This document shows, one piece after another, positions 3,601-61,500 of a stretch of 64,000 bases of DNA. The position numbers were made by a program, and so were the translations under genes. Source of the DNA: Watersipora subatra (taxonomy: Eukaryota; Bryozoa; Gymnolaemata; Cheilostomatida; Watersiporidae); contig NC_088717.1 of assembly GCF_963576615.1 (NCBI RefSeq), forward strand, positions 37,588,302-37,652,301, read 5' to 3'. Every line of letters begins with the position of its first letter. Position 1 is the stretch's first letter. Under the pieces are notes generated by a model that was given only the letters and a program-made list of their open reading frames with translations, was not told the DNA's origin and ran no database searches.

Positions 3601-4142
3601 TTATATGTAAATCAGAGCAGCTTCTAAAAGAAACAAGTTATAGCAAACTCCTAAATGATATAAGTTACGGCATCTTACTAAAGGTTATGTAAGCTATGCC
3701 AAGCTATGTAATGTTTCCATTGTAACTATTACATAGGTTACACTTGTAAAATTCTAATTTATGGGTAATTTGTAGCAATGTGCTAACTGGTAATCATTAT
3801 TTTTGCTTACTCATTGAGGTATGAATTATTTTACCTTCAAATTGATATGTAATTTACAACAACCATCTAGACATTCTCCAAGTTTTGACAGTTTTTCTAG
3901 TATGCATATTTACAAAGTATGATAAGGCGATGAATATATATTGTATGATACCATATTCTCCTAAAACTTCCATAAAAATATATAATAATTAGGAGGTGCA
4001 TAAATATATATATATCTACAATGTAGATAAATTAGACCATATAGGAGGCTTACCCATATATATTTGCGTTAACTCCTAATCCCTTATATTCCGCAACCTC
4101 CTAACTGGTATATATTTATTCAACTCCTAACTCGGAAATATG

Positions 4143-10440: not shown

Positions 10441-12215
10441 AGCTGTACTACCCAGTTTTGCTCAGGTAATAAAAAGTCTTTGGACAGACAACTTTATGTT
10501 TATTTAACATACCGTATACAACATTTACCATGCTAACTTTTAAACTTCATATCATGAGAAAATATCTTTAAGCAGTTCAAAGGAATTAAGAGGAAAAAGA
10601 AAACAACTCCAAAGGTTTTCAAGTTTTTTCAAACAACTACAACTTTCAAGTTTCATATTATGAAAGAAGTGTTTTCTTGAAATAAATTAGGAAGAAAAAT
10701 AAAACTGTAAATGTCTTTACATGTAAATGTAAAATCATTAGCAAGTAATGGCTAAATATAATTTGTTCAGCTATGATTACAATGAAAAGTTATTTGGTAT
10801 ACTACATGTATTATATGATTTTCGCTCGTTTCAGTGTTGGCATCATAAAGTGAAAATATCATATAGAGTAGTATAGAAACCCATAGTGATTATCTAATGC
10901 AATCACTGCCTGTTAAAATTCAACATCATTAAAAATAGTAACGAAACAATATATTAAACTTAGCAACTATAGTTACCTCCAATAACTTTGGTGCATTTTG
11001 TGGGTATGATCTGCAAAAATGCAACATTACAATGTTCTATGTGCAGAGTTCTTACCTTTAAAACAGACGTGTAATTATAAACGCTGAATCTAACTTATTT
11101 GATTTTATCTTACTATAAACATACTTGAAAGAAGTTTTCACATGTATTTTAGCAAATTTTTAACTAAGATTTTATCACTGTTAATCCCCTGTTTGCAAAC
11201 GGCTTTACAACAACGGATGACGCTGAACTGAGATATAATCGCCAAATTTTAATGTCAAGAAAACTTAATCTTGATACCGTTTTGCGGAAAACAAAATAGC
11301 TCTAGTACAGCAAAAACGGAAAAAGAATCGTGTTTTATAGAATTAATAGAATTCATAGAACTTCAATTAACACGTCATTCAGCGGGGAAAGACCTATAAA
11401 TTATTGCGCTATTATTAAAATTAAGAAAACGTAGTGTGGCTGGGAAAAAGTCTTTGGAGCAGCGGAAATAATTTAGGAGAGCAAATAAATGTTGATGTGA
11501 AATAAATAGCAAATATGTAAACTAGGAAACAGATGATTTTTCAATGATACAATTGATCCAAACTGAGAATACCCAATGAAAATTGTTATTTCATGGTAAT
11601 TGTTGTATTATGGGATTTGTTAGGCTCAGGCTATATTGGTGTCTGAGCTCAAGGCAGTACAGGTGGTCTTGGTAATTACGGTGAGTGCATAAAGCTGGAT
11701 AAAGCTAGTGGGTAAAGCTAGGAGATTAGCTAGTGTAAGGCAGTATGAGGGAGGATATAAGGAAGTATAACGAAAGACAGCGGCTCTTCTTCATCTTCAC
11801 ATCAGTACATGTGAGTACATTGATTTATACAACAGTAATCAGTACAACAAATGCCAAATTTTAATTTCGAATTAATGAATTTGCAGAAAACAAATTAGCC
11901 CTAATACGGCGAGAACGAAAAAGCATCGCGTTCCATAGAGCTAAAAGAGTTCATTGAGTTTAAATTATCACGTCATTTTTTGTGTGAAAACGAAAAAAGG
12001 ATGTATACCTTATGTAGTATATGCCCATGTATTGCGAAAGCTTTCGTGGTCTCGTTGTGAGAGCATTGGATAGCACAACTGTGATTGCGGTCTTCGTGAG
12101 TTCTAATCCATCAAAATGTGGAATTTTTAACATCAAAATTTTAATAGCTATAGCCGGAATGACAGACGACACACCAGACGAAGACATACTTTGAGAAATA
12201 TAAATACCGGTATAA
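10441..12215 (-). mobile_element. minus-strand Helitron, nested insertions
   Basis: The reverse complement near 10441-10490 reads CAAAGACTTTTTATTACCTG, then a short hairpin and ACAGCTATC. This is the same 3' motif seen in the Helitrons ending at 21436 and 45467, with CTAT for CTAG. The matching 5' end type (TTTCTCAAAGTATGTCTTCG on the minus strand) is at about 12170-12215. A tRNA-like stretch lies at 12045-12120. A block beginning GCCAAATTTTAAT occurs twice (about 11250-11380 and 11852-11975), so the interior is rearranged. That both ends belong to one element is inferred. Confidence 0.5.
11601..11849. mobile_element. possible solo LTR
   Basis: 249 bp beginning TGTTGTA and ending TACAACA, the TG...CA inverted ends of LTRs, between the two copies of the GCCAAATTTTAAT block. 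A 4-6 bp target duplication is not evident (only AAT on both sides), so this could be chance. Confidence 0.3.
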
Positions 12216-14063: not shown

Positions 14064-17000
14064 ATGAAGCTCAAGAAATTTTTATTACGATACTATCCAC
14101 CAGGTAACTATAATAAACACAATGTGTTTTTTTATACATTTTAGCTGTAGCTTCGCTTGCGAAAAAAGTAGTTGTCGGCCACTATCGAGTAATTCTAACC
14201 TAAACATTCCAATTTGAACCTTATCAATGGGTATTAACCTTATCAATCGTTGTTATATGTGAATATCGGTGTTTACAGGTGTTTGAATATAACGTGGTTC
14301 AAACATTTTAAATATATTTTTAATATGTTTAGATCTTTTTATTTGCTACAGAATTTTAAATAACTGTTTTACAAGATCATGCCTCACCTAATACTGACCC
14401 GTGTTTTTAGGGTGTATTATGAATTTGCAAGAAATGTCAGTGTCGTAAGATGGTTTAGACTAGACTACATACAGATTGCAACAGGTTCTATGGCAAACTT
14501 TGCGAAATATAATTTATTTTTTCAAGAAATTTCAGTAAGTAGCAGTGTAATAATATAGCTGACACTCTGAGCTTTAATATTAAATACAAGGTTTCAAAGC
14601 ATTCAAGTGAACCACGTCATTCCAAGAGTTACTGTGCAAAACATATTAGAATAACAAATATGTAAAGCACTAATAAGTACAGTTATGTTTGTATTTTGAT
14701 ATAACAAGCCCAAAACTAATGGTCGAACCATAGGCCTATATAGTGTTGTTCAAAAATAAAAATCTTCGAAACATGTCATGTTGAAAATTGTCTTTTATTG
14801 ATGTTGGTGTAGCCCTAGAATGTGGAGGTTAGCTAATCTATCCTACAGTATATTTTCTTAGCTTTTTATTCACTCACACAACTTCTAAAGCCTTTATGTA
14901 TGACTAGCTGGGATACCTGGCATTGTCCGGGTTTTAAAATTAGCTTATAAACAATGGGAGTTGCCTGGCACTTGCTATTAGCCTGGCACATTGCCAATGG
15001 ATAATTTGAGTAAGCTTACTAATAAGAGTTATCACTTCTCACACCTTTGCGTCGTGACTGAAAGCGGTAGCGTATTTACTCCCATATAGCGACATATATC
15101 GCCTAATGAATTCATCAAGTTTATGTGGCTGAATTGGTAAGGCATCAGACTGATGAACCAGAGGGTCCCAGATCAAATCAGACGCGCTCCCAATTCTTTC
15201 TTCTAAGATTTTAATAACTATAGCTGGAACGACACACAAACTTTGAGAAATATATACAATTGTATATATATGGATAAGCTTTACCACTTATGCTTGACAT
15301 ATATACATTCCATTTGAATTCTGATTGTGTTTCTAACATTGCCTTCCATTACTCGCAAAACTTCTTTATTCTGGTTGATAGCGTACTTTATCACAGTAAA
15401 TTATGATATGAAGGGATAAAGGCTTATTAGGATGTTCTTGTTGCAGGTATCATACTCGAATACGAACAAGGTGGCATCATGAAACAACGAACACTTGACC
15501 TGCTAAATCTACAGCCGCAGTTAGTTTTTCAGTATATTCTAGAGTTATTTGGTGTAGATGCTTAAAATAGTTTGGTTTAAAGATGAACTTACACATAATA
15601 TTAGTAGATTTTATCAGAAAGTGTCGATCGGTATTTTTCTATAATATGCAATTGTTTTTAATGTTTGAAGTGTTTTCTTAAGAGCATTTTAACAGTGATC
15701 AGTCATTTTAACATCTTGGCAGTCAGATCACTTCAAACATCAAAAACTGATCTCAACTGATAGAAAAATATCGATACTTTTTGGATAAAATCTACTACAG
15801 TTTTGTGTAAGTTAGTCTTTAATAATTAATTAAATATTTCTATTGCTTCTACTCTCTCTGCTGAATGATTTCTTCCTTATCGATAGTTTCACTATCCCAG
15901 TTTAAGGTTTATTTTGGGTTTATAATTAAAGATTGCTATATTAGCCTTATGTAATGATTATATTGTTTATTTTTTCAAATTCCTTTTACCCTTTCTATCC
16001 TGTCTCAGATATGATATTCTATTTGAGTAACAACATATTATCTCTGCCATACGATTAAATTTGCCAACATAGAATACTTCCGATGTTATCTCTTACCTTG
16101 TGAGGTACATAAAATTATCTGCAGTGAAATAAAATCTTTGTTCTAGGTCAGACATAGATACAGTGGTGGATGAGTTGATGCGCACAGAAAAACTAATAAC
16201 TCCTTCCAAAGTCGATCAGGTTAGTAAATGTATTCGTGTCTGCGTGTTATTTAATGTTACGTCGTAAACGCTTGCACGATAATTTTGCTTCTCGAGCAGT
16301 AGTTTTGTTTTTATTTTGATGATATTTGCTTGAATTTTAGGTCAGAAAACTAGTACAACGACTCCAAGAAAAGCTTGCTATGGCTCAAGACTCCACATTC
16401 TATTTGTTTAAAGTTCTACGGGCTCACATTCTACCACTTACCAATGTAGCTTTTAACAAATCTGGCTCTAGGTGAGACATATCTATGTATTCCATTTAAA
16501 CAATTAAAACAAGGTATAAACTGATGAAGCGGTCGTAGTTCAGTGGATAGGGTGCTGTCTTATGATCAATAATTCAGTGGTTCGAATCACATAGCCTAAG
16601 GACCATTGGTGATGTTAAGAATGGCATCCAACCACAATTGCTCTGGTGTCAAATCTGGTCAGGTCATCGGCGACTAAACCAGGTTCCCCATCTGCACTCC
16701 ACTGTGAAGGGAGGGGTGGCTAGCAACCCTGCGGGACTAAAAACAAAAAGTGAAAAAGAATGGAGGAGCTCTTCTGTGAACTGTTAGAGATTATGTCTTC
16801 ACAGTACATGTTATTTAAAGCGAGATAAAGCAACTAAAATTTAATTGCTTTACCACGTTGTTTGGTATGCTACAATAAAAATGAAAGCGCAGGTTTAAAG
16901 TCTGAGCAAACCAGCCTCATCAAGTGCTAAACCATTGTATAACCAGGTGTAACTATTGTATTTGTTGTATTGTAACCAACTATAAGTATGGTTTAGCACC

Positions 17001-20000: not shown

Positions 20001-23000
20001 AAAAGCGGCGGCATATTTTAATTTTAAAGTAAATGTTAAAATATTAGCATATGGTCTTTTGAATGCAAGTAGACATCGTTTGCCACTGTTTTATGCAAAT
20101 CAACCCAAATTTATGAAATTTTGAAAATTTGGATCATTTTGGAACAAAAATGCTTCGTGGTTGTTTATGAAACCCTCTTAGGTTTCCTCAGCATTTACCT
20201 TTTCTATATGTACACTTGCTAGTCCTGTGCCCTGTGAGAGATCATCATGAGTAATCAGTATGATTATCCAATAAAGTTGCATGGTTGCCGAGTGGTGTAG
20301 TGGTAATGTGCTTACTCTTGAATCTGACAACCTGGGTTTGATTCCTGCGTGAGGCAATCTTTTTCCTAACGCATTTAGCGTGGCTATGGACAGAGAACAC
20401 GGCTTTTATTATAGTAAAAATTGTTGGTATTATGGGTAGTATGCACTCATGCCAACCTGTTTATTATCTTAGTTTTACATATGCCTGTTCACTCACCTCT
20501 ACTATCTCTCATCTTACTCTGAATATTATTATTGTCATTCTGGTTGTAGAGATAAAGTTCTGACAGGATCATTTGATAAGACCGCTAGACTGTGGAGTGG
20601 AGAAAGTGGCAAGTGCTTCCATACCTACAGAGGACACACTGCAGAAATAGTGAGTTACACACACAGCTATTATAGTACTATTATAGTGCTATTATAGTAA
20701 ATAGATTGTCTACTTGATGTAACACTGTGTCTTTATTTGCCATGTTGAATGTCATTATTCTAATATGTTCTAGTAGGTAGGTTTTCCATCCAAGTCATTG
20801 CCATAAAGAATATTATCCTATATTGTTTTGAGCTAATAAAGTTGATAGTATTAAGTTTGAGCTAATAAGAGCTTTGTAGAATGGTCTGTATACAAGAACC
20901 AAGATTGCAGTTAACTTTATTCTTTTAATAGGTTACAATAAAATCGTCAACGAACATGTTATTATTAAAAGTTATTGAATTATTAATATTATCTATATAT
21001 TTCTCAAAGTTTGTCGCATGTAGGTTTGTAAGATTGATTGTCCGGCAATAGATCTTAAAATCTTGAAATAAATATTCCGTGCCGACGAAGAGTCGATCTC
21101 GGACTCGACTGTTTACCAGTCTGACGCCTTCCCCACTAGATTACAGAAATTAAATTGCTAGCTTGCCAATATAAGTCATTATATGAGAGCAAAACCTAAC
21201 TGCTTTGCTTACGACGCGGGTCATAGCATAACGTCACGAGAAGCTGTTCGCTCATATTATTAAACTTGCTAATAGCAAATCTCTCACTACTTCTCATTGT
21301 TTGTAAGACAAAACACTTTTCTCATGATATGTAGTTTGAAAGTTAGAATGGAAAATGTCGTTATATGTTAAATACAAATCAATTTTCTGTCCAAAGATTT
21401 TTCTATTACCCGGGCAACGCCAGGCGGCCCAGCTAGTAACATATTAAAACTAATGAAGACTTGATGGTAAATTATGCGTGTTGTCACATTACCATTCTCA
21501 TTGTTCCTGCAATTATTGACTCAGTGGGTATTATTTATGCATGGCTTTATCTAGTACAAGTGAGTCCTTTCTAGGGATTTCAACTTATAAAAGAGAGAAT
21601 TTAAGAAGTTTAGTTAATACTTTGTAGCCTAATCTTGTACATACAAGCCGGTCTCCTGATCCTAGACTGGCGTACATACATGTATGTTTCATCGACTGTG
21701 AAAACACTTGTAATAGCGCATTTCTTTTGAAACTGAATATAATTTTGAAGCTCTAAGATTGTGGGGAACAATGAAAGAAATGGAAATGAAATATAGTGAA
21801 TATTTCTTACTTTACTCTCTGTTAAAAAAGGTGATGTGTTGGAGGTGATTTAAGACTCATCACTATTGACGTACACTGAATGTGATAGAGACTCATCACT
21901 ATTGACGTACACTGAATGTGATAGAGACTCATCACTATTGTCAGACACTGAATGTGATAGAGACTCATCACTATTGACGTACACTGAATGTGATAGAGAC
22001 TCATCACTATTGACGTACACTGAATGTGATAGAGACTCATCACTATTGACGTACACTGAATGTGATAGAGACTCATCACTATTGACGTACACTGAATGTG
22101 ATAGAGACTCATCACTATTGACGTACACTGAATGTGATAGAGACTCATCACTATTGACAGACACTGAATGTGATAGAGACTCATCACTATTGACAGACAC
22201 TGAATGTGATAGAGACTCATCACTATTGACAGACACTGAATGTGATAGAGACTCATCACTATTGACAGACACTGAATGTGATAGAGACTCATCACTATTG
22301 ACAGACACTGAATGTGATAAAGACTCATCACTATTGACAGACACTGAATGTGATAGAGAGTGTGGGTTTTCATGAATAGAAAAACGACTAGTTCAAGTAT
22401 CAAGCTTTTGTTGGTGATGGGAAGAACTTTTTTAGGTTTGTCTTTTTTTGATCCTTCGTTATCAATAACTTCAATCAGTGTGTCATTAAAAATTGATGCC
22501 GTGTCAGCAGCCATTTTTCATTTCATGGTTGGTTTGAAAAATCTTTAGTATTTCAGCGATATCTTTAGAATTAGAATTCCAATCGACTTAGAACTTTGAA
22601 ATTATATTAAAAACGTGTCACACACGAAGCGGTCAAAGAATTTTTAGTCCTACATAAAACAAAAGTTAGAGAAACCAAAGCGAAACTATGAGGCGAGTTT
22701 TCTTGGGCATAGGAACTGATGAGTAAACAACTCTCAAATTATATCAAGTTCAGACTTTGCAGTGCAAAATAATACTAAAGATTTTGTACCAAATAAGCTA
22801 CTCTTCACCTAAAGTCTCTATTCAAATTTTATTCTATTCATCAGTTTCTACCATTGTTTTTTATTGTAGTTATATGCAGCCGTTGCTCTTTATTTAGACA
22901 GCTGTTTACCCTTTTTATTCTTCAAGTCTTTGCAACTCTTTTCTGTTATGCTTGTCTTTTTGCTTAATCATTCTGAAGTCAGCATTGTTCGCTGCTTTTT

Positions 23001-36900: not shown

Positions 36901-39900
36901 CTGTAAAATTAGCTGTCTTCATGCTGATGAGCTTCCATTGAAAAAGTAAACTCTTTTATCTATATATATTTTTCAAAGTATGTCGTCTGTCTTCTGTCGT
37001 CTGTCTGCGTCCCGGCTCTAGATCATAAAATCTTGATGTTGAATTTTCTGTTCTGATGATTTCTGAAAGTTCTGATAAATTTGAACTCATAACGAATGCA
37101 TCAACAAGTTTCTAATCCATACGCTCTACCACTGAGCTCTACCACTGAGCTCTACCACTGAGCAATGAGCTCTACCACTGAGCTCTACCACTGAGCAATG
37201 AGCTCTACCACTGAGCTCTACCACTGAGCAATGAGTTCTACCACTGAGCTCTACCACTGAGCTAGAACAGCATATTCCATACGTTCTACTACTGAGCTCT
37301 ACCACTGAGCAATGAGTTCTACCACTGAGCTCTACCACTGAGCAATGAGCTCTACCACTGAGCTCTACCACTGAGCAATGAGTTCTACCACTGAGCTCTA
37401 CCACTGAGCTAGAACAGCATATTCCATACGCTCTACTACTGAGCTCTACCACTGAGCAATGAGTTCTACCACTGAGCTCTACCACTGAGCTAGAACACCA
37501 TACTCCATATGCTCTACCACTTAGCTAGAAAAGCATATTCCATACGCTCTACCACTGAGCTAGAACAGCATATTCCATACACTCTACCACTGAGCTAGAA
37601 AAGCATATTCCATACGCTCTACCACTGAGCTAGAAAAGCATATTCCATACGCTCTACCACTGAGCTAGAAAAGCATATTCCATACGCTCTACCACTGAGC
37701 TAGAAAAGCATATTCCATACGCTCTACCACTGAGCTAGAACAGCATATTCCATACACTCTACCACTGAGCTATAACAGCATATTCCATACACTCTACCAC
37801 TGAGCTAGAAAAGCATATTCCATACGCTCTACCACTGAGCTAGAACAGCATATTCCATACACTCTACCACTGAGCTATAACAGCATATTCCATACACTCT
37901 ACCACTGAGCTAGAAAAGCATATTCCATACGCTCTACCACTGAGCTAGAAAAGCATATTCCATACGCTCTACCATTGAGCTAGAAAAGCATATTCCATAC
38001 GCTCTACCACTGAGCTAGAAAAGCATATTCCATACGCTCTACTACTGAGCTAGAACAGCATATTCCATACGCTCTACCACTGAGCTAGAAAAGCATATTC
38101 CATACGCTCTACTACTGAGCTAGAACAGCATATTCCATACACTCTACCACTGAGCTAGAAAAGCATATTCCATACGCTCTACCACTGAGCTAGAAAAGCA
38201 TATTCCATACGCTCTACCACTGAGCTAGAAAAGCATATTCCATACGCTCTACTACTGAGCTAGAACAGCATATTCCATACGCTCTACCACTGAGCTAGAA
38301 AAGCATATTCCATACGCTCTACTACTGAGCTAGAACAGCATATTCCATACACTCTACCACTGAGCTAGAACGCAATGGCAATCGGAAACGTTTTCATATA
38401 ACGGATACACAATGCGCGTGTTAATTATTTTAGCCTTGCATCCACGAGTTACGATGCTTCTGTTCAGAAATATTTTGGGACCTCATGTAAGTATGTGCAA
38501 TGTGATGCTTATTCATCCTTTTTCATTAAGGCTAAATTTATTCGGCCCCACGATATCGACGATAATTTATCTCAAACTTAAAATTCGGCAATTGGTTCAC
38601 TGATTATATACAATGAAACCTCGGCTCTTGGACGCTTCGGTTCTCGACTAACTCGGTTATCAACCAAAAATTTTGAGATTTGTTCGTCGCGGATCTCGAA
38701 CATAAATTCGAGAGCATGCGCATTGAAATTGGAACAGCTCCGGAAACAACATGCAAACGTTCGTTAACAAAAAGCAATTTACGCTTCATGAATTCTTTAC
38801 AAAAAAGGAGGAACCATCTGGGGCAAAAAGATTTACCAAATAGATTTGCTAAAGAGATAACACCTCTAGCATACGTATATTTGTTTATTATTTAACTTGT
38901 GAGGAGCAAAGAGGAAAAAAATGTTAAATTGTAGAACGGCGAAGAACTTTATAAGGCTTAGCTTGTCTGGAGACTCATTCGCTGTGCACTTGATCGCTAC
39001 CATAAGTTCCTAATTGGTTAAATTGATGTCTACGCATGTCATGTGCTGGGTTACATTGGTTTACTTGAGGGTTAGGTAAATTTCTTTAATTTATTTGACC
39101 AAAAATTAATTTTTCAAAACTCATTTTCTCAAAAGTCAATTACTCGAAAACTGAAAAGTACAATTTTTTGAACATAATTGAAATTATTTGGTGAGCTCTA
39201 TTTTGTTCTTGTATTTAGTTTATCTTATACGTACATAAAACAGCTTCTGTTTACAAAGTTCTGATTTTAGGTTTTTGTACTATATTTTTTCTGTAGTCTC
39301 AAATCATCAAGCTGGAAACAACGTTGACAGCGATAAGGGAAGAAATTAGGTTTAAATGACAATTTATATGTCAAGGACAAAATATATTAGAATTGAGAGA
39401 TGTGCAACAAAATGGGAACTTGGTTCACTACAAAATGGGCATCAAGGATATCAAAAGTTGCGCAGACGAGTTCCATAGTGAACAAAATTGCTATTTGTGA
39501 ACTACTGATTTTTATTTATTTTTTTGACTATTTCAAGTAGACTATTACTTGGTTTGATGAGAGGTTTGGGTTGTACTTAAGGTGTCTGATTAGTAACCAT
39601 TGTAAATGACAATTCTTTAACGACTTGATACTGTACAGCAGGTGAAACTACAAATTCAAATTTTTCAACGAATTGTATTTTAATACATTTTGATATTTTT
39701 TGGAAACAAATTTTGTAGCTAATTGATAAATAGACATTACTATGTTTGATTTAGTGATTTATTTTAGCTAAAATCAGATCATCTTAGGCTCTGATAACTC
39801 GAAATCATATTACTTTTAACCGTACCAGTTGATTAGGTCAATAAGTCGATCAGAAGATGTAAAGACATTGATTGATGGTATGATGTATAAGAAGATTTTA

Positions 39901-43197: not shown

Positions 43198-46100
43198 CTA
43201 TGCGCCGGCTTGAGTCTCCATTGAGGAAGCCTTTTGCAATGATTCAACAAACTCATCCAACATGACTGGCCCTGTAAGAGAACATTTAAGTACACTAATC
43301 ACAATGCAAATCTGAAGTGATTTTTGGTTGAATTGCAGAAATTGCATTTGCAAAATTCAATTCATACAAAAAGTGTCAACGATGACACACTTTCAAGGTG
43401 GGTCTATGACATTATACCATGACAGACGACGATAGGTGAGAGAAGCTCGATGCAAAAAAAATTGATGGAAATTATGAACAGGTGATGTGCCACACTTGAT
43501 GTCTGGTGACATAATACCACGTAAGGTTAACAAAGCTGTAATTCAACCAGTTTCATTCTTTTCTTTATCAAATATTAGGTCTAACTGAACATCTTCGATA
43601 GACTTGTATAAACAATTCTAACTGATGAAAAATGTCGGCAGGTGACACTCTTGACATGGTCCTATTGACTGATAACATGACAGGTGACAACGGGTGGCTA
43701 AAGCTATTGAATGTCAATCTTTACATGGCGAAGTATTATTTATAGCTCAACATCTTCCTAGACTCATGTTCAGCCACACAACTATCAACAGTCCACCAAC
43801 TTTTTATGTTCTCCACCAACAACCTCAACATATAGATTTTCGAACAAACAACTTAGAATTTGACAAAATATTTTACTCTACCACCGCAAAAACCTTTCAA
43901 CATATAGCATTAAAATCTTTTAAAACCATGTAGTTTTGCACCAGAAAGGGAAAAATGATACCAATTTAAAACTAAACTTGAAAAATATAAAAGATAGTAA
44001 AATAATTATATATAAGCTAAGTTAATTTGAACTCTACCTAGTATATGTTAGACTAGGTTACACCATGTATCTTTATCACCTCCTAACCTATTGATGACCT
44101 ATAACCTATGACCTATTGCCTACGCTTTCAGTCGAATGTCTGTAAGATAATGTAATAACAAACAATAAAGTAAAGCCTGGTTCCCATATACGTCTCAAAG
44201 CACCGGTGACAGCACGGCAGGCTATTAGCGGTGAAATGGGAACCTACGTAGTAGTAGGTTGTTGCCTAGGTAGTTGTCGGAGGCAACGCAAGAGTTTAGC
44301 GCTGTTCAAATTTCGAGAAGAGCCGCAGGCAAAGCCTTCCCGAAATGCACTGTACGGCATAGCGAACGAACACTGTTATGTCGTTATTAGCGATGCAGCT
44401 TTATGTGAACCACCGAGCCTGGCGTCGCAAGCATTTTACTGCGCAATATTACCGCCGGAGTCTCGCAATCGATATGGGAACCAGGCTTAATCATTGATTA
44501 TTGCTTTATTAATTTAGAGTTTTGCAAACATTTTAGTTTGTAAAACTATATATATAGATCTCAGTGTTTGTCTGTCATCAATCGTCTGTCCAGTAATAAC
44601 TTTAATAATAAAAAAACCATTTCACTGAGGATTTGAACTCACAACATTTAAACTGCAAGTCTACCAATGAGCGTGTGTAAACACTAGACTAAGCCATTCT
44701 TAACATTCAGATCTCTCTATCTAACCTTATTGCGATTGCACACGTAAAACCTGTACTTTTTATAATTAATTTATATTACATTTTGCGTTTGTTTTTCTTT
44801 AGAAATATTTTTGAAAGCTTTTTTGTACCATTACTCATAACCTATTTTTTAAATTTTTAATTTTTAAATACGCCGCTTCAATTTCCATTACCTTACTATT
44901 TCTGGTTTTTTCCAAATTTCGATCGTTAATTCTGTAAAGGCTAAATAGTTTTCATGTGGGCAATAGGAGTTGTCTCTACATTCTCTCTCCATTCGGTCAG
45001 ACAAAGTATCAAACGAAGACAGCCTGATATCTCATTTTTACATTTGCACTAGTATCAAGAGGTATCAGTATCGTCCTACTCCAAGTTTTGATAGATAGCT
45101 TTTGCTGCAACAGTAACCTCTTTTATACACATATTTCTATGCACTCATTGTTGTTGCTCATTCAACATATTCATGATTTTTATTTTGTTTACTCAGTTCG
45201 TATCAATTATATCATTACCAAATCACTTTTTATTGTAATCGTAGCAAAACAAACTTTATTTAGCCATTACTTACTAAATATTTCAAGTTTAAATTTAAAC
45301 ACCTTTACAGTTGTTTATTTTTTTCTTAATTTATTTGAACTACACAAAACGCTTTTCTCATGATATGTAGTTTGAAAGTTAGAATGGTAACTGTTGTAAT
45401 ACGCTGAACAGAAAAAAATCTGTGCAAAGACTTTTTATTACCTGGGTATTGCCAATCATTCACCTAGTAGTTCTATATAATACATTTGTTTTAATGAAAT
45501 GTGTTAACGCTGGAAGTATTAAAAAGTTATCATAGATGTTTGGTCATTGGAACAAATTAAATAAATTACAGTGTATTCCTATAATAATATTTGCTTCAAC
45601 ATACGATGGTTTCAACACTCAAAGCAAATATTGGAACAAATAAACTTTGAAGTTTAACTGCATATGAATAATTATGATATATGAGCACACGGCTGTGGAG
45701 TCTCCACTGAACTATTACTATGGATTATTATGAATTATCATCTAAGGTGAAGGAATCCATGGATGCAATTGTATAAGAGTGTGCCTACAAATTGAATGTA
45801 AGGGCATATGAGATGTCTTAGTTTCATCCATATGCTTGTGTGCTAACAGTGTATGTAAGTGCATACAAACAAAACTCAAAGAAATGTACGTACACGCGCC
45901 ATTGACATCGTAGTTTGAAAGGTCGGACTTTATGCTTCTACTGAACTCCAAAATGTTATTCCATTGATCTCTATTCAATACCTTGTACTGTGAGTTCTAC
46001 AAAATCATGAGATAGCCTATGAACCTTTGCCAAAATTACGAAGTGTATAGATAGATGCTATACAATCTGCACATATAAACAAACTAATACTCTTTTAAAA

Positions 46101-47172
46101 TTGCAGAATATTCATAATGAAGGTGTGCCTGAGACTAATTTTATTAGACACACCGAATAAACAAGTATAATAAAAACCGTTCAATAATTTGATATTTGTC
46201 TTCAACTATGTAAGCAGTTCTACTTCAATCATGTTAACAGTCCTACTTCAATTATGTTAACAGTCCTACTTCAATTATGTTAACAGTCCTACTTCAATTA
46301 TGTTAACGGTCCTACTTCGATTATGTTAACAGTCCTACTTCAACCATGTTAACAGTCATACTTCAATTATGTTAACAGTCCTACTTCAATTATGTTAACA
46401 GTCCTACTTCAATTATGATAACAGTCCTACTTCGATTATGTTAACAGTTCTACTTCAACCATGTTAACAGTCATATTTCAATTATGTTAACAGTCCTACT
46501 TCAATTATGTTAACGGTCCTACTTCGATTATGTTAACAGTCCTACTTCAACCATGTTAACAGTCATACTTCAATTATGTTAACAGTCCTACTTCAATTAT
46601 GATAACAGTCCTACTTCAATTATGTTAACAGTCCTACTTCGATGATGTTAACAGTTCTACTTCAACCATGTTAACAGTCCTACTTCAATTATGTTAACAG
46701 TCCTACTTCAATTATGATAACAGTCCTACTTCAATTATGTTAACAGTCCTACTTCGATTATGTTAACAGTTCTACTTCAACCATGTTAACAGTCATATTT
46801 CAATTATGTTAACAGTCCTACTTCAATTATGTTAACAGTCATATTTCAATTATGATAACAGTCCTACTTCAATTATGTTAACAGTCCTACTTCGATTATG
46901 TTAACAGTCCTACTTCAATCATGTTAACAGTCCTACTTCAATCATGTTAACAGTCCTACTGCAACTACGCTAACTGTGGTTTTACAATAACGTTAACAGC
47001 ACTGTAAACATCTGAACAATGTGATCTTAACAGCAATTTATAAAAAAGCTTCCCATAAACAGAGATATTTAAAATCTCCAATGTTACTAGAATAGCCAAT
47101 AAAATTGCCAAATGCGTGGAGATACAGTTGTAATACACATCCAGTAAACTCGACACAATGACCGTGTTAATG

Positions 47173-47213
<41 letters not shown>

Positions 47214-50200
47214 TGGTGTGCATAAACTTGGAATCACCAGTTAAATCTTCAAATATGTATGTTTATATGCTGTTGTCTAAGAAATTCTTTGGAGTTAAGT
47301 GCCTCAACCCCATCAATATATATATCATTTGAAAGAGAAAATTTTGAAGAACAAGATGATGCCAAATATTCAAAAATATTCTCAGATTTTTATCGCTGAG
47401 GGTGGATCTACCGAAAGGCAGACTTATTGCAGGCTATGAATGTTGTTAGTGAAAATTGATAAAATAGGATACAAACAAACTCTTTTATACAAGTTGGTGG
47501 CCCTGAAAAGGGCCGTTGGGTTATTGTTGGCCTTCAGAAGAACTGGTAAGGTGTCTTGAGCTGAGCATTAGTATTTTATTGGCCAGCCCTTGTTCTTGAT
47601 CACCATCTGACACCGTCGAGACATGCTGTTTACCAACTTTCTGAGCTCTTCAGGAGTGATGATGTGATGCCAAGCATGAATAATCTTCTCTATGAGCTCC
47701 CGTTTTGTCTTTGGTTTATCTTTGCTGACTATCACACCAATACGCTGCCAAAGATTTTCAATGGGATTCAGGTCAGGGCTTTGTGCTGGCCAGTCTATTA
47801 CCCTCACATTACTTCTGGTCATCCACTCCTTGACTTTCTTGGCACGGTGGCAGGGTGCATTGTCATCCTGGTAGTACCAGTGTTGGTCGTTGCTGGTGAA
47901 CAGGCTTCGAGCACTTGGAAGCATGACATCTTCCATGGTCTTGATGTATTTGTCTCCATTCATCATGCCTTCACAAATGGAGAGTCTTCCCACACCAAAA
48001 GCTGTCATGCAACCCCATACCATGACTCCAGTAGGGTGCTTGATGGTTGGTAGCGTACAAGCCGGGCTGTACTCCTCTCCAGGTCGTCTCCTCACATAAC
48101 AATTTCCAGAGTGTTTTTGGATGGTAAATTTTGACTCATCACTGAACAAGACCCTTTGCCATTGGGCTGTTGTCCAGAACCGTTTATCTTTAGCCCACTC
48201 TAGACGACGCTTTCGCTGTTTCTCAGAAACTAAAGGCTTGCGCCTTGCCTTGCAGCCTTTCAAACCATTTGCAAGCAGTCTTCTTCGCACTGAACTGGGG
48301 TGAATCTCAGTATCTCTGTTGTCCTTGATCTCCTTACAAAGTTGAGTACTGTTCAGATGTCTGTCAGTGAGGGATCTTCGTACCAGGTACCGATCTTCAT
48401 GGATAGTCGTCTTCTTGGGTCGTCCAGCAGAGTAGGTGGGTTTAAGACTGCCATTGGAGGTCCAAGTCTTGATTGCTGTGTAGACTAGTGTGCATTGTTT
48501 GAAAGCACATCTTCTGCTGATCAGATTGATATATAATAACTGGCATGGCATCATAATTGGCGGGAAAATAGAAAGCAAATGGAAGATCCATTCGATATAG
48601 AGTGAACAAAACAATGTGATTCCAAGTTTATGCACACCACTGTATATATATCTTATTGGTCTCCCTTACATATATATTATATGTAAGGAAGACCCATAAG
48701 ATGGTATATACTACCGGTATTAAGAAGCCAATAAAAAAGACCCTCAGAATATCTCTCTCACTTTCGATAATTGGCTATGACAAGAACAGAAACATTTTTA
48801 GAAAAACTAGTAACAGATACAAAAAACAAAAACTCTTCATCTTCCAACTAGTCTGGCTATAGCTTAAACACCAAATGCTACACCAAACAATTATTAGCTA
48901 GAACAGGTTCTAACAAGTTATTTTTTAGTAAAACATGACTTCACTTCCAACTACTGTCGTACATCACAACAAAATAAGTAAGATGCTCAATGTATGTCAA
49001 ACTCCATAAAACGACCATGTGATCGTTCAGGATCGGACAAAGCCATGCAGTATAACAGTATGCAGAAACAAGTGATCGACTATAGAAGCAACCAAAGTAG
49101 TCCTTGTTCATGCAATCGGTTTTAAAAGAAAGCTTACAATAGCTATGCCATTTAAATTTATAATTCTATAAACAGCACACAGATACAGAAGCATGCACGA
49201 ATACTTGGGATACTTGTACCAGAACTCCTTAGTATTTGCGTATCACAAAAGCAAATGGGTTAGGCATATTCAGCAGACCCATGTGATCGTTGGAGTAAAG
49301 AAACTTTTCAGATAAAGAACCAAGTGAAAAATTACAATCAAGGCACCTCAGAGCTGACTGATTTTTCAACGAATTTACCAATTGATTTCTCGATTTTTTA
49401 TTAACTATTTTACAAATCCATTCACCAAAAATAGCAAAAAAGGTTTTATAGCAAGTGGTCTTATGCATGAAACTCATTATTGGTATTACATAAAAAATTA
49501 TTGCTAGTGTTAAAAGTTGTTCTAGAAACTCATGTGCGCACACTAAAAAGAAAACAGTGCTATATAGAGTTCAGCAATCCAGCTATACAGTCTGATAACT
49601 GGACTATACAGAGTCTGACAGTTAGACTATACAGAGTCTGACAGTTGGACTATACAGAGTCTGACAGTTGGACTATACAGAGTCTGACAGTTGAACTATA
49701 CAGATTCTGATAGTTGGTCTATACAGAGTATGACAGTTGGACTATACAGAGTCTGACAGTTGGACTATACAAAGTGTGACAGCTGAACTATACCAAGTCT
49801 GATAGTTGGACTATACAGAGTATGACAGTTAGACTATACAGAGTCTGACAGTTGGACTATACAGAGTCTGATAGTTGAACTATACAGAGTATGACAGTTG
49901 GACTATACGGATTCTGATAGTTGGTCTATACAGAGTATGACAGTTGGACTATACAGAGTCTGACAGTTGGACTATACAAAGCGTGACAGCTGAACTATAC
50001 CGAGTCTGATAGTTAAACTATACAGAGTATGACAGTTAGACTATACAGAGTCTGACAGTTGGACTATACAGAGTCTGATAGTTGAACTATACAGAGTATG
50101 ACAGTTGGACTATACAGAGTATAACAGTTGGACTATACAGAGTCTGACAGTTGGACTATACAGAGTATGACAGTTGGACTATACAGAGTATAACAGTTGG

Positions 50201-53200
50201 ACTATACAGAGTATGATAGTTGGACTATACAGAGTCTGACAGTTAGACTATACAGAGTCTGACAGTTGGACTATACAGAGTCTGACAGTTAAACTATACT
50301 GATTCTGATAGTTGGTCTATACAGAGTCTGACAGTTGGACTATACAGAGTCTGACAGTTGGACTATATAGAGTATGACAGTTGGACTATACAGAGTCTGA
50401 CAGTTGGACTATACAGAGTGTGACAGTTGAACTATACAGAGTCTTACAGTTGGACTATACAAAGTATGACAGTTGGACTATACAGAGTCTGACAGTTTGA
50501 CTATACAGAGTCTGACAGTTGGACTATACAGAGTCTGACAGTTGAACTATACAGAGTCTTTCAGTTGGACTATACAAAGTATGACAGTTGGACTATACAA
50601 AGTCTGACAGTTTGACTATACAGAGTCTGACAGTTGAATTATACTGATTCTGATAGTTTGTCTATACAGAGTCTGACAGTTGGACTATACAGAGTCTGAC
50701 AGTTGAACTATACAGAGTCTGACAGTTGAATTATACTGATTCTGATAGTTGGTCTATACAGAGTCTGACAGATGGACTATACAGAGTCTGACAGTTGGAC
50801 TATACAGAGTCTGACAGTTGGACTATACAAAGTATGACAGTTGGACTATACAGCGTTTGACAAGCACTCTTAAGATCGTTTAAACGTATACACCCACATG
50901 TTGAAGCGTATTCATGTACATCAGAGCGACTCGCCTGCTATTACACTAACAGCTGCAAGTGTTCCAAGGAGTTAGGGTAAAGAAAGTAAGGCCGAGTACA
51001 TAAATCCAGGAGAAATAAGCATTATAACAATCTAATACATACATCCCGAAGAAATAAGCATTATAGCAATTTAGTACTTACATCCAAGAAAGATACGAAC
51101 TGCGTAATCAGAGGCCACCTTGACTCCAATAACAGTTTCAGCATTGCTTTCCCCATTTCAATGTCAACATTTCGATGCCCATTTCCCTGTAGAAAAGAGT
51201 TGTTAAAATGCAAAAATTAGTGTTATCGATGTTTCCAGAAGCAAATTTAATTAGGTGAAATATGATATTTCACGTATCAGTCTGTGTCAATAAAATTGTA
51301 ATGATATAAGTATTATGTGTCAATCTAACTTTGATAGCTGTGGTTATAGAGAACAACTTAACTCAAACTAAATGACTTAATAAGATAATTTGCTATACAA
51401 AAACCTAGCCGGTCTGGGTAGCATTCGATCGAATGGTAAACCTTTCATTGGTTGAATATAGATCATAGTTGATTACCTAAGACCGCCATTATTAAGTTGG
51501 TATAGCTTAATTTGTGAAATAGAAGACTTGAATCCATTATCTAGTTCAGAAAAAGCTAACACCAATAACCTGAAAAGTCCTAGGAGTAGGTGTTTCTACC
51601 TATATCTGTGTGAAGCTAACAGATTCGAAATGAGTTCTGGTATATCTAGCATTGACCAGTTCACATAATTGGAACTATAACCAGCATTAAAGGCATTTTA
51701 GTATAAATAGCGTTGAGGTGTCGTTTAATGACATCTTGAGAAAAAACAAGTATTGCTAATTCTGGGTCCCACCGAGGGGACTGCTAACTACAGCAATAAA
51801 ATTAACTGATTATGCAAAAAATGAGATGAAACTCAAACTTGTGTTTTTGCAGATGACTAGCGCCAGTGCACTAAAGCACTTAACCTAACAGCTTCGACAT
51901 GAGAATTTATGTCCATAAAATTATCAAACAGTCACAGCTAAACTATTCTTAAACAGAAAAATAAATGTGCGAAATGACGCCACTAGTTGATATCATTGTT
52001 ACAATTGATATTAATATCGGCTATTGCGCTCAAGTTACAACATTACGCGCCTCTATTCTGTCAGTCTCTTTGCAACTAGAGATGTCATAATCTCACTTTA
52101 GCTCGATATGAGCATTTTAACCGCGATCAAGTTTTGTTGATTTTAATCTTGAAACATCTCAGCGGTGAGATCACTTCAAGCATCAAAAACAATCGCAAAC
52201 TATAGAAAAATACTGATAATTTCTGATCAAATATACTAAAAATTTGTGCTGGCTCATCTTTTTACTTCAAACTATTTAAAACGTAGATGTAGTTTTCCCA
52301 GGTCATTTGTTCTCCTAAAACCTATAAATGATACTGAGGTGTGAACTGTTCAATTCCTTTAAAACACTAGAACAATGCTATAGCAGAATCTTGACAAGTA
52401 CAGCTTTGCGAACTCTCAGCGACACAGGTGTTATGTTGGAACTTGATTGGTTGGTTATTGCGATGTCATAATACTATTTTAGGAACTTATTAATTCTATT
52501 GACCGCCATAATGCTAGCTATTGGCGATTTAGCATTTGTGTGACAAGCTTTTTAAGTGGTATAGCTGAACTGAACAAGCTGGAAATGCCATGAATAGTGT
52601 GCTATCATGCAAACAGCTAATACTTTGCAACAACTAGGAGCATATTACACAAACAATGAATCTATTTGTATCTTCATAAGATCTTCATAATTGCGAAAAA
52701 AAGTTGTTGCTGACAAGTTGGTTCATCGCTTTATTTTTGCTGCCTCTATGGAATGCCAGTGGTAGTTTTCTAGTACTTCATCATCTAGTGTTCTGAAAAT
52801 TGGTTTTTACCTCCAAGCCCATAATTTATTTACTCCGGATTTACTGCTGCTTTAAAGAACTTAACCCTTTGAATACCATTCGGCTACCTATTATAAGTGT
52901 AGAATAACTCCTGACATACACATACATTGAATCATTTCCTGTTGTCTGAATTTTTTGGATGATGCAAACAGTTTGAACAATATTTTGTGAAGCCAACTAA
53001 AATCCAGGATTGCTAAGCCCATTAGTAAAAGGCAATATACTGTACCTTAAGTTTAGAACTTATACAGATGAGTCAAAGGTGTAAGTCATACTAACCTTGG
53101 AAAAGTCAAAGATGAACATATATAAATGTGCGTGAGTCAGATATGTAAGTCACACTCACCTTGGAGAAATCAAAGCTGAACTGATATATACTTTTGAAAT

Positions 53201-55519: not shown

Positions 55520-58500
55520 ATGCCAGTAGGAGACTCTAGAAAAGACTACATATTATCGGCTATTGGTGGACATTACTCCATATCTGCTGCCGAGGTAGAG
55601 GTTCTTGGGATTAGTGATGATCGGGCTTTGAATTCATTCCTAGACGATGGAAACGTTTTGTCACTCTGTGCTAATATTTCGCAAAAAGGCAGCGACAAAT
55701 CTGTCAGCCTATCTAACAAGGTTGGTAAACAGCATTTACCATCTGTTACATTGTGTGTTTGTTTTTATTTTTTGACCTGCAGTCTGTTACAAAAATTAAA
55801 TTTTGAAGATATTTTTGACTACAGATTTAATCGGTATATTAAAACAATTGTTGGTGACGCATGACATTGAATGACGTCATTAGCAATAATGTAGTTTGGA
55901 TGAAGTAGTTGAGTACATAATTATTAGGGCTTGAGAGTGTTTTATATGTCAATTTACATAGTTATAGAGATCTTGTGTAGAATTATATGAACAAGCAGCC
56001 ATTAGTCTGAGAACGTTTTTATTTTACCAGTATTGAGTATGTATTGCAATTGAACCAGTCATACTAATGTCCGGAATTTAAATTTTAATAAAGTCACTTT
56101 TTACTGTGCACATACAAGTATATTAGCTATGCAGTCTATGCTCTGGTTTTAGGTTGACCCAAGTGGCGACAGAGAAGCTGTTGTCTTCTTCAAAACGAGA
56201 CCAGTGACGATAACCCCTGACAACCTGCACACAGATATATCTGTATCTACCATGAATGAATCACCCATTAATGCTCTCTACCACTCAGTTCAAAAAGTCT
56301 TTGCTCCACTGCTTCTTAAGGTATCCTACAGTTCTGACTCATTTTACTTTCCACAGTAGCCCAGTCTACATCGTGATTATCTATTCGGTTGTCAGATGAT
56401 TTGATTAACTTAGTAGACATAGATGAGACTTAATTGTATATATCTGTATTTGTACATTTGCCTGTGCGTGAGTGAACAATCTCTCACACATTGAGTATAC
56501 TCTCACACATTGAGTATAATAGTACATGCTTAGCCTATTGCAAGCAGAGACTATGCATGTTTTTTAAGAACCAATGAGCAGTTTAAGGTTGGATGTTATT
56601 CCTGTCACCACCGGGGGTCTTTTTTTAGAAATTGAACCTCGACACATTATTTACAGGTCAGGAGTTCTAGACCACTAAACCACGGGTTATTTCCTTACAT
56701 TGTTTTAATATTTTAATCCTTATTTAAATAAGCTTTTTTACTAATCAATGCAGTTGACTAACTGTTAAGAGTTGGATGTTATTCCTGTCACCACCGGTGG
56801 TCTCTTTTAGGAATTGAACCTCGACTTATTGTTTACAGGTCAGGTATTTTAGACCACTAAGCCACGGATGCTTTCTTACATTGTTTCAATATTTTAATCA
56901 TTTTTTAAATAAGATGTTTTGTTAATCAATCAGCCATGGTTGCTTTATGTCAATCGAGTTTAGTGCAGTTGAACAACTGTTAAAATGAGGTATCGGTATC
57001 CATGGGTCAAACGTTTCGTACAATCGCTACAGTTGACACCTTTGTTTGTCAGGTTTGCTCGCTTAACTTTATATTCTACACAGGATGATAAATGGAGCAA
57101 AGGTATGAACCCAAAACTGCAGTCCTTGTTGTCGGAGCTCGAGGAGGGTTTGGGTAGTGTGATCAGGAAGCAAGAGGCTGGACATGGACGTGGTAATGCT
57201 GATGACTCTTTAGGTGGTGAGTCACATTGTTCCAGTTATCGTTTTCATCTAACAACACATGTCATTAAAAGGTTTGCTCAGATCAAACGAGTTGCAAACA
57301 GAGTGCAAAGTTCTGCAAAAGCAGTTGCAGAAGCTGTATAGTTGCAAAAGCACAACCGAATCGAGGCGTGTAACGTTGCAAATTGAACACAATATCCGAT
57401 ATAAACGATAGCAACTAATGATATTGATGTTTTCGTATTATCAACGATTGTAAAAAAATACTGTGGATGTTTCTCTTCGAAGTGTTTTAAGTTGGATAAT
57501 ATTTTGTCGATTTTAATCTCCAAACACCGTGGCAGTCAGATCACCTCAAACATCAAAAACAATTACATGGACAAATGATAGAAAAATACCAATACGTTAT
57601 GATAAAACATACATAAATTTTGTGTAAAATCATCTTTTAGACCCCTTGTTGTTGTTGTGATAATAATAGTGATGTTGCTAAAAGCAATTAACAATACTTT
57701 TAAAGCAAACTTACTATATATGTTAATATTAATTAAAAATATACATAACCATTTCTAGGAGCTGAATTATCCATCATAGCTTTTCGTTGTTAGCGAGTTG
57801 GTTGTTGTATATCTGATCTTCGTCTCATGAGACAAAGATCAGATATACTGTCAAGACATACGATGTCCTGTTATGTTTATCACTGTTTGCATACATGCAA
57901 TTAACTTAGGTCATGGCAACATATCGTCAAGGAATATTGTTTCCAGAGACTTTATCAATAATTCCAATAATTATATATTTACTATAACGCTGTTCTGTTC
58001 ACAATCAAAAATTCATATTGCACTCTGAAGAGGATTATTGTCTGGGTTATATATAAAGAGTTTGAGTGAGCCGTTGCTGTAAGCGAGAAAGTCAAAACAG
58101 CATATATAGAACAAATATATGCATGTCTTTAGGTTTTCTATTCGTGTAACAAAGTACAATCATACACTCTATTGGCTGGTAAAATATATTTTATCTTATT
58201 TTATTATTTCTTGACTGCATCAATCTTGCCATACAGGTATATTGGTGCCTAGCGATGAGTTCCAATATTGGGATGAAGTTGCCAACTCTGCTAACAAACT
58301 AGAGACAAAAGAGAGAGCACAATTCTTCACCGACATGTTTAACCAGATAAGCAAAGTAAGATTTTTGTCTAATCTTCTTTATCTGATATGTACACATATA
58401 TTGTATCTTCTCTATCTGATATGTACACATATATTGTATCTTCTCTATCTGATATGCACATATATATTGTATCTTCTCTATCTGATATATACACATATAT

Positions 58501-61500
58501 TGTATCTTCTCTATCTGATATATACATATATATTGTATCTTCTCTATCTGATATGTACATATATATTGTATCTTCTCTATCTGATATGTAGATATATATC
58601 GTGTCTTCTCTACCTGATATGTACAAATATATTGTATCTTCTCTATTTGATATGTACATATATATTGTATTTTCTCTACCTGATATGTACACATATATTG
58701 TATCTTCTCTACCTGATATGCACATATATATTGTATCTTCTCTATCTGATATGTACATATATATTGTATCTTCTCTATCTGATATGTACATATATATTGT
58801 ATCTTCTCTACCTGATATGTACACATATATTGTATCTTCTCTACCTGATATGCACATATATATTGTATCTTCTCTACCTGATATGTACATATATATTGTA
58901 TCTTCTTTATCTGTTATGTACATATATATTGTATCTTCTCTACCTGATATGTACATATATATTGTATCTTCTCTATCTGATATGTAGATATATATCGTGT
59001 CTTCTCTACCTGATATGTACATATATATTGTATCGTTTCTACCTGATATGTACATACATATTGTATCTTCTTTATCTGATATGTACATATATATTGTATC
59101 TACAGTCATGAAAACATCGTTGTTTTCAATGGCCCAATTTTGGTGGATTTTTGACGTGAACTCTATTTTACTTTTATTTTACTTTACAGTATTTTTGTAT
59201 TCAATTGCACCTTTTTGCTACAGAAGATATCAACGGGGGTTTTCGGACAAATTAAATGCATCAGTAGCATTTGCTGATTACATAGCTGAGTTTTTTTCGA
59301 TTTGTTTTTCTCACCAATCAGTGCAATACGAAGTGCCAATTATTTTGTACCAGTATTTGATATATTTCAATAAAATAGTTTTCTCACATTTGCACTATAA
59401 TTTAAGTGTGGTGCAGCCAGTATATGTACATGTATAATTTAAGTATGGTGCAGCCAGTATATGTACATGTATAATTTAAGTATGGTGCAGCCATTATATG
59501 TACATGTATAATTTAAGTATGGTGCAGCCAGTATATGTACATGTATAATGATTAGAAGTATCTACTAATCTTTCCAAGGATTTTGTCAACCTGAACGCAC
59601 TTGAAGTCGCTGACGTTCTGGAGGTCATTGAAGTCTGTCAGGACGCCCTGGATGAAGTCTGGAAGCAGACGGAGCACGATCCTTATCCCCAGGGCAGAAT
59701 GAGACACCTTTTAGAGGTCATCGGTAGGTCATTACACTAACCTTGTTCATCTACAGCAACTGACTAATGACAACATATCATGAATTTCTGGCTCGAGTCG
59801 ACAGACTGTTTCAGTGACTGCTTCTTAAAACTATCACATGACTAGGTGTAACTATCACATAGCTAGGTGTAACTATCACATGACTGGGTGTAACTATCAC
59901 ATGACTAGGTGTAACTATCGCATGACTGGGTGTAACTATCACATGACTAAGTGTAACTATCACATGACTGGGTGTAACTATCACATGACTAAGTGTAACT
60001 ATCGCATGACTAGGTGTAACTATCGCATGACTAGGTGTAGCTATCACATGACTAAGTGTATTTAGGTATCAAACTAGTTTTAGAACATTAATGGGTAAAT
60101 TATTGATGAATTAACTAAATAAGTTTGCCTTTTGACTAGTTATGGGGGAACTAGTTATGGGGGAACTAGTCAAACTAGGAACTAGTGCTAATCTGATAGT
60201 GCTTCAAATATAAACAGATAGCATTGCTAATCTGATGGCATTTTCGATTTCTTGTCCGTTTCTCGATGATCTGTTTGATTTGCAAGGTAGGCCCTATTTT
60301 TGTTAACCAACATCCAAATATAAAAGTGAATATAGTGTGTAACGTATAAAGGGTTAGACGAAAATGAAAAACCCCAACATGTCATACCAACAGACTGCTA
60401 TGATGATCATGGGCATCCAATGCTATTCAAAGCAGATTGGTGTTGAAATTACATCAGTTTTTGGTTTGAAAAGATTGCAGACCTCACACGTTGTCAAAGG
60501 GTAGTTTATAAACAGGAATATTAAAATTGTTTTCAATCAACTTGCGCTAACCAAGACCATGCTTTAGAAAAACTTACAAGGTGTTTACCAGAACTGTCAA
60601 AGCCATATAGCGAGAACTTTGTACTTTCATGTATGACAAAATATGACAAACTAAATAATGTTTTTTTAGTCAAGCAGTACTGCAGCATTGTGTATGGTAA
60701 AGGTAGACGCAAGTATACTTGGCTATATGCTGTTGTGATTTTTACTGTAATAAAAGCAGCATCCATGCGACTGTCCGAGGAGGTTTGAAAAAAAGATTGC
60801 TTTCGATAGGATTCAACCTCACGACTTTTAGCTTGGTAGACCGACACTGCCATGTGTACCAATCGACCACCTCACCGCATTTCGAAATAATTTTGCCGTT
60901 ACATATTACACATGCTGATCTCTCACCACTAACCAGACTGCTGAGGTACCAGTACTAACTAATGAAGGTACCTGTACTAAATAATGAAGGTACCAGTACT
61001 AAATAATGAAGGTACCAGTACTAAATAATGAAGGTACTAGTACTAAATAATGAAGGTACTAGTACTAAATAATGAAGGTACTTGTACTAAATAATGAAGG
61101 TACCAGTACTAAATAGTTAAGGTACCAGTACTAACTAATGAAGGTACCTGTACTAAATAATGAAGGTACCAGTACTAAATAATGAAGGTACCAGTACTAA
61201 ATAATGAAGGTACCAGTACTAAATAATGAAGGTACCAGTACTAAATAATGAAGGTACCAGTACTAAATAATGAAGGTACCAGTACTAAATAATGAAGGTA
61301 CCAGTACTAAATAATGAAGGCACCTGTACTAACTAATGAAGGTACCTGTACTAAATAATGAAGGTACCAGTACTAAATAATGAAGGTACCAGTACTAAAT
61401 AATGAAAGTACCAGTACTAAATAATGAAGGTACCAGAACTAAATAATGAAGGTACCTGTACTAACTAATGAAGGTACCTGTACTAAATAATGAAGGTACC

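Follow-up and report, generated by a model that had tools for sequence, protein, structure and literature searches.

A minisatellite that probably grew inside the tRNA-like promoter of a Helitron-like element in the bryozoan Watersipora subatra

The best explanation of the tandem array at 37121-38370 of the window (the whole 64,000-nucleotide stretch of Watersipora subatra DNA analysed here), given a probability of roughly 0.7, is that a minisatellite developed within the tRNA-like promoter of a single non-autonomous Helitron-like element. In this copy the A-box stretch of the tRNA-like segment has multiplied in tandem, and the B box is single at its usual spacing. Such arrays would start with a tandem duplication and then expand through unequal exchange or slippage, and this growth would have occurred separately at several loci. 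The coordinates of the features are collected in Table 1.

Table 1. Features of the array, its carrier element and the related copies in the window.
Feature	Position	Strand	Basis or remark
Helitron-like non-autonomous element holding the array	36959..38612	+	matches to L013, L014, L019, L024, L027, L028
5′ subterminal body, common to other copies	36959..37074	+	sequence search
Single B-box-like sequence GAGTTCAAATTT	37077..37088	-	box scan; start 50 nt after the last A-box start
A box / D-arm copy nearest the B box (the last one), GAGCTCAGTGGTAGAGCG	37122..37139	-	motif scan
Compound head, steps of 13, 20, 35 and 48 bp	37121..37526	-	TRF and splitting at the D-arm motif
Regular array, unit TAGCTCAGTGGTAGAGCGTATGGAATATGCTKTTC, 35 bp x 25.6	37476..38370	-	TRF and splitting at the D-arm motif
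Continuation of the carrier past the array; upstream of the tRNA-like head in other copies	38371..38612	+	sequence search
Further 5′-part copy with B box GAGTTCTAATCC and a weak A box	12060..12212	-	28/100 shuffles as good
Helitron-like copy with A box TGGCTGAATTGG in an antisense tRNA-like segment; CTAG end before T	14904..15265	-	3/100 shuffles as good
Helitron-like copy; antisense tRNA-like segment by eye; 3′ hairpin, then CTAG before T	20992..21436	+	30/100 shuffles equal the A+B score
Diverged copy; antisense B box GAGTTCAAATCC	44540..44671	+	outside the 16 terminus-only hits

The array consists of 25 regular 35-bp units and a compound head. The regular part has a 35-bp period with 95% matches according to TRF. 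In the head (37123-37526), TRF rows of period 13, 33 and 81 overlap, the 33-bp period being the sum of 13- and 20-bp steps. When the D-arm motif is used as the cut point, the 25 regular steps of 35 bp are followed by the mixed steps of the head. The 18-mer TAGCTCAGTGGTAGAGCG is found on the minus strand of the array at 41 sites with at most two mismatches, as against a mean of 0.00 in 100 shuffles. The first-pass annotation had described a 1.25-kb array of 35-bp units with a D-arm/A-box motif on the minus strand, and this is borne out by TRF and the motif scan. Its count of about 25 exact motifs stands in part: each of the 25 regular units has the motif with no more than two changes, but only 12 sites in the array are exact. 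Strong folding as single-stranded DNA is seen for the 13-bp unit type (z -3.54), but not for a pair of 35-bp units (z -1.23) or for a single-copy stretch (z 0.01). ARAGORN gives two tRNA-His genes in the array, where Rfam reports no tRNA, and the pair is taken to be a chance product of the repeat. A coding role was likewise rejected, with the longest listed frame (132 aa) lying in the compound head only and 35 not being a multiple of 3.

The array is placed inside a single element because both of its flanks match the same dispersed element. The 5′ terminus of this carrier, TCTATATATATTTTTCAAAG preceded by A, is at 36959. Relatives of the left flank (36960-37054) are found in the window at 12211, 15258 and 7242 on the minus strand and at 20990 on the plus strand, with further matches at 14511 (minus) and 44546 (plus) that fall below the nhmmer inclusion threshold. 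The suggestion that the left border is a Helitron-like 5′ part agrees with this, as the flank is related to window elements with such a 5′ end. On the other side, the right flank aligns with L013, L014, L019, L024 and L027 at 72-78% identity, and the homology with other copies stops at 38603-38612. A match to L028 (81% identity) covers 38509-38869. The downstream scan for ends made of a hairpin and CTAG before T found no 3′ terminus for the array-bearing element, and inverted-repeat scans around it led nowhere. The adjoining region, 38604-38869, is common to L028 and resembles by eye a terminal repeat of the pogo/mariner type; an ORF there has no Pfam match.

Helitrons begin with TC after a host A and end with CTRR before a T, with a hairpin just upstream of this end. 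Among 11 5′ ends compared by eye, the array-bearing element and some others start with TC after A, and others begin within AT repeats. Downstream of the 5′ end, a hairpin with CTAG before T is found in L017, L019, L021, L024 and two copies of the window (ends at 21436 and 14904). Within 1.7 kb on the same strand, 8 of 29 5′ ends are followed by such an end (3/13 in the arbitrary sample, 5/16 at loci chosen by the A box); for the opposite strand the figure is 1 of 29. Taken by itself, the 3′ pattern shows a weak excess in the arbitrary sample (6 versus 3 in reversed sequence) and a count of 8 versus 1 at the A-box loci. On these sequence features the carrier is termed Helitron-like rather than Helitron.

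The nearest exon recognised by search is DCUN1D4-like and lies at 45.7-46.0 kb on the minus strand (E 2.5e-10); its Pfam Cullin_binding score of 26.5 bits is just under the cut-off of 27.9. A possible further exon at 43.3 kb was noted by eye only and has no Pfam match, and a DYNC2H1 exon is located at 63.6 kb. Nothing in these results shows the intronic location that had been assumed for the array. Pfam searches of 14 ORFs gave a Tc1/mariner-type transposase and the cullin-binding match below the cut-off. The transposase ORF runs from 48665 to 47568 on the minus strand, and about 50 nt downstream of it on the same strand Rfam places a histone 3′ UTR stem-loop at 47519-47474, with 39.4 bits against a gathering score of 34. 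Other repeats in the window include a large higher-order minisatellite at 698-3662, with a 203-bp repeat present 14.6 times over an underlying 29-bp period (TRF), and minisatellites with units of 22-33 bp and 22 to 55 copies each at 46200-46964, 49589-50862, 58372-59101 and 60944-61803.

Relatives of the array were sought with the array units across the genome (783.7 Mb, 239 contigs). This gave 61 matches, from which 20 stretches were chosen, and 13 of these (L012-L024) carry a single A box. The search leaves the proposed relation of the unit to tRNA elsewhere in the genome unrefuted. The boxes and ends of these relatives also support the earlier suggestion that the unit comes from a tRNA-like segment with a Helitron-like carrier. 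Within the window, an antisense tRNA-like A and B box adjoin the flank, as judged by eye, in the copies at 12.2, 15.2, 21.0 and 44.6 kb; shuffle scores back the segment at 15.2 kb and not those at 12.2 or 21.0 kb. The group is abundant, with 2582 first-look candidates, of which 40 were scored, and the B-box 14-mer occurs 2662 times genome-wide as against 5 for the reversed word.

Since the other loci had been reached through an A-box query, a second sample was drawn using only a model of the 5′-terminal ~95 nt (E 0.01). Besides the window, this sample took in 20 stretches of 10 kb each, placed arbitrarily on contigs 1-3; it gave 16 hits, two of which are the arms of one palindrome in L034. In 9 of the 16, at most 5 of 100 shuffles reach the A+B score; the other seven, which include the array-bearing element, have no clear A+B pair. 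The tRNA-like segment of many copies lies ~100-200 bp inside the 5′ end and faces outward. These segments miss the gathering score of the Rfam tRNA model, which has no hit at gathering in the window; the sole hit, in L017, reaches 14.4 bits against a gathering score of 29 (E 1.3). They do not match the tRNA model in the way expected of a tRNA gene or pseudogene. ARAGORN finds no tRNA genes in the 20 fetched loci. Pairs of elements in opposite orientation with their 5′ ends together were seen at L034 (~2400), at G000:C6:36730185-36730498 and in L017, the L034 pair being a palindrome around ATATATAT.

The array had been described as an A box without a B box. This holds for the repeated units, from which the B box GAGTTCAAATT is absent, but one copy lies at the left edge of the array at the usual spacing, and the description of an “A box only” satellite is thus rejected. 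Of 22 loci, 13, with the window array among them, have their A and B starts exactly 50 nt apart, which is the spacing of most single-copy relatives. These 13 are not all independent, L014, L015 and L016 being by eye copies of one duplicated region. The distance differs from 50 in five of the 22 loci and no B box was found in four, so that 18 of these loci, all chosen by the A box, have one. In 11 of the 18 the first T run comes exactly 14 nt past the B box, as against 46 nt in the window array copy. The B box of the window element is degenerate, and its A+B score, calculated like the others with a general consensus for the two boxes, is equalled by 38 of 100 shuffles. Within the stretches examined there is no B box beside the arrays of L027, L029 and L030; the L029 stretch ends inside its array, and L030, a duplicated relative, has lost the B-box half.

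Further A-box arrays were found in L025 (39 bp x5), L026 (28 bp x3), L027 (38 bp x3) and L028 (59 bp x2). A 69-bp unit recurs 34 times in L029, where the array reaches the border of the stretch, and ~146 times in L031, where it takes up all 10 kb. A 47-bp unit is present 46 times in L030, which looks like a duplicate of L010. L052 holds an array of 13-bp units with a B box after it. The arrays of L025-L031 came from the A-box query and are biased in this respect; L052 did not, as it was found by a word search. The 69-bp satellite is far larger at 22.7 and 25.15-26.67 Mb of G000:C6.

The foremost alternative, compatible with the minisatellite reading, is that the arrays arose through sequence-driven slippage alone and that their apparent bias towards the A box comes from the sampling. 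The A-box query did yield most of the arrays seen, and tandem repeats are common in this genome: those with a period of at least 10 take up 10% of the 264 kb sampled and 11413 of the 64000 bases of the window, which is above the pooled arbitrary stretches. The 13-bp unit, with its strong predicted fold, also fits by eye an AGC...AGC repeat in the D arm. Against a sampling effect stand genome-wide counts of exact 14-mers recurring at a gap of 11-41. The A-box word forms 49 such pairs at eight places, five of which are similar 47-bp arrays on contig 1, leaving about four origins. The B-box word forms none in its 2662 occurrences. A word from the element body forms 11 pairs at one place, a 36-bp-unit array after another tRNA-like head. 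The A word occurs 1493 times (460 and 1033 on the two strands) and the body word 2432 times; outside arrays, 2422 is taken for the body word and 920 (2 x 460) for the A word, the latter being an estimate in which any real tRNA genes are also counted. Compared with the B and body words together, four A origins give a Fisher P of 0.002 (0.013 without the window array), in a test with two control words only, neither of them from the 5′ domain. Compared with the body word alone, P is 0.023, and it rises to 0.067 when the window array is excluded, a value that suits the sampling effect.

Direct repeats bear on the same question. Those of at least 6 nt span the A box in a mean of 1.47 of 11 copies and the preceding stretch in 1.48, as against 4.0-6.4 for five other parts of the element. 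As these two parts have the fewest spanning repeats, long microhomology is not the reason for A-box arrays, and seeding by such repeats was rejected. With this and the absence of tandem B-box words against it, slippage alone is a somewhat improbable account. Because one array arose in the element body, the A box is not unique as an array site; that it is favoured is suggested, though not proved, by these counts.

A second alternative concerns the carrier, which could be a tRNA-derived SINE made up of an A/B head, a body and a tail rich in AT (ATATATATAGAT); the array would then be an expansion in the SINE head. In the 13 single-A-box loci, as judged by eye, the A box is followed by the B box, the body and an AT tail that varies, and the fixed position of the T run behind the B box in the 11 loci given above would suit such an element, as would the tRNA-like head with both boxes, seen in 18 of the 22 A-box-chosen loci and in 9 of the 16 terminus-only hits. 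A SINE is nevertheless unlikely, because the sequence shared by several copies reaches ~230-250 bp upstream of the A box, beyond the expected Pol III start. The strand preference of the Helitron-type 3′ ends (8/29 versus 1/29) is also against it. The simpler version, a SINE that ends in the array, was rejected, as the element carries on beyond the array.

That the array is a functional TFIIIC platform maintained by selection, whether as a sink, an insulator or an extra-TFIIIC site, is very improbable. In favour of this are the A boxes, ~40 in number and near-perfect, a single B box spaced as in a tRNA, and similar arrays at other loci. However, TFIIIC binds mainly through the B box, of which no exact tandem words were found. 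Unit boundaries and lengths vary among loci, an array arose in the element body too, and tandem repeats are in any case abundant in this genome. The array may bind TFIIIC weakly, but it is probably without host function, and of the options raised by the first-pass annotation “simply a young array” fits best. An assembly artefact is scarcely credible, given the ordered variation of the units, the two flanks belonging to one element and the other arrays at separate loci.

The minisatellite reading has partial counterparts in known systems. The oyster Helitron/Helentron non-autonomous elements Cg_HINE, CvA, CvE and CvG contain internal satellite-like repeats, according to the available portions of PMC11136912. 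As far as those portions describe them, these elements resemble the present case in having tandem repeats inside a Helitron-like element and short dispersed arrays; Drosophila DINE-TR1 is reported to be a further element of this kind. The array studied here differs from them in that its repeats derive from the tRNA-like segment close to the 5′ end, its unit varies by locus and 13 single-A-box copies are without an A-box array. Satellites from tRNA-related regions are also on record, namely Hy/Pol III of Hydromantes and Satellite 1 of Xenopus laevis (excerpts of PMC9659126). They share that origin with the present array; they are known here by description rather than by unit content, and to that extent the present case is distinguished by a unit that covers the A box, a single B box and a Helitron-like carrier. 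Minisatellites born in Alu and other SINEs, in which a short piece of the element expands in place (the same excerpts), are similar in that a short piece of a dispersed element has expanded in place, and differ, in so far as the excerpts go, in the carrier and the part of the promoter. Among the accessible portions of the open-licence literature searched, no Helitron with a Pol III promoter or a tRNA-like part was found.

A bound Pol III/TFIIIC complex would, less surely than the steps of growth themselves, make the A box a preferred site for arrays. This role is put forward because tRNA genes are known to act as replication fork barriers (available text of PMC6733944). A wider proposal, rather doubtful, is that a large Helitron-like group keeps an outward Pol III type 2 promoter despite wide divergence and that factors bound at the A box favour the repeated birth of arrays. 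If this is true, the arrays would mark Pol III initiation complexes that disturb replication, or the extra A boxes would help the element. What is possibly novel is a Helitron-like group that has kept a Pol III-type promoter and in which arrays have arisen repeatedly at the A box. Separate births of arrays at one part of a promoter form a natural series that could be used to test Pol III promoters as satellite hot spots, and a group of Helitrons that retains its tRNA-like promoter may be a novel type of construction for these elements.
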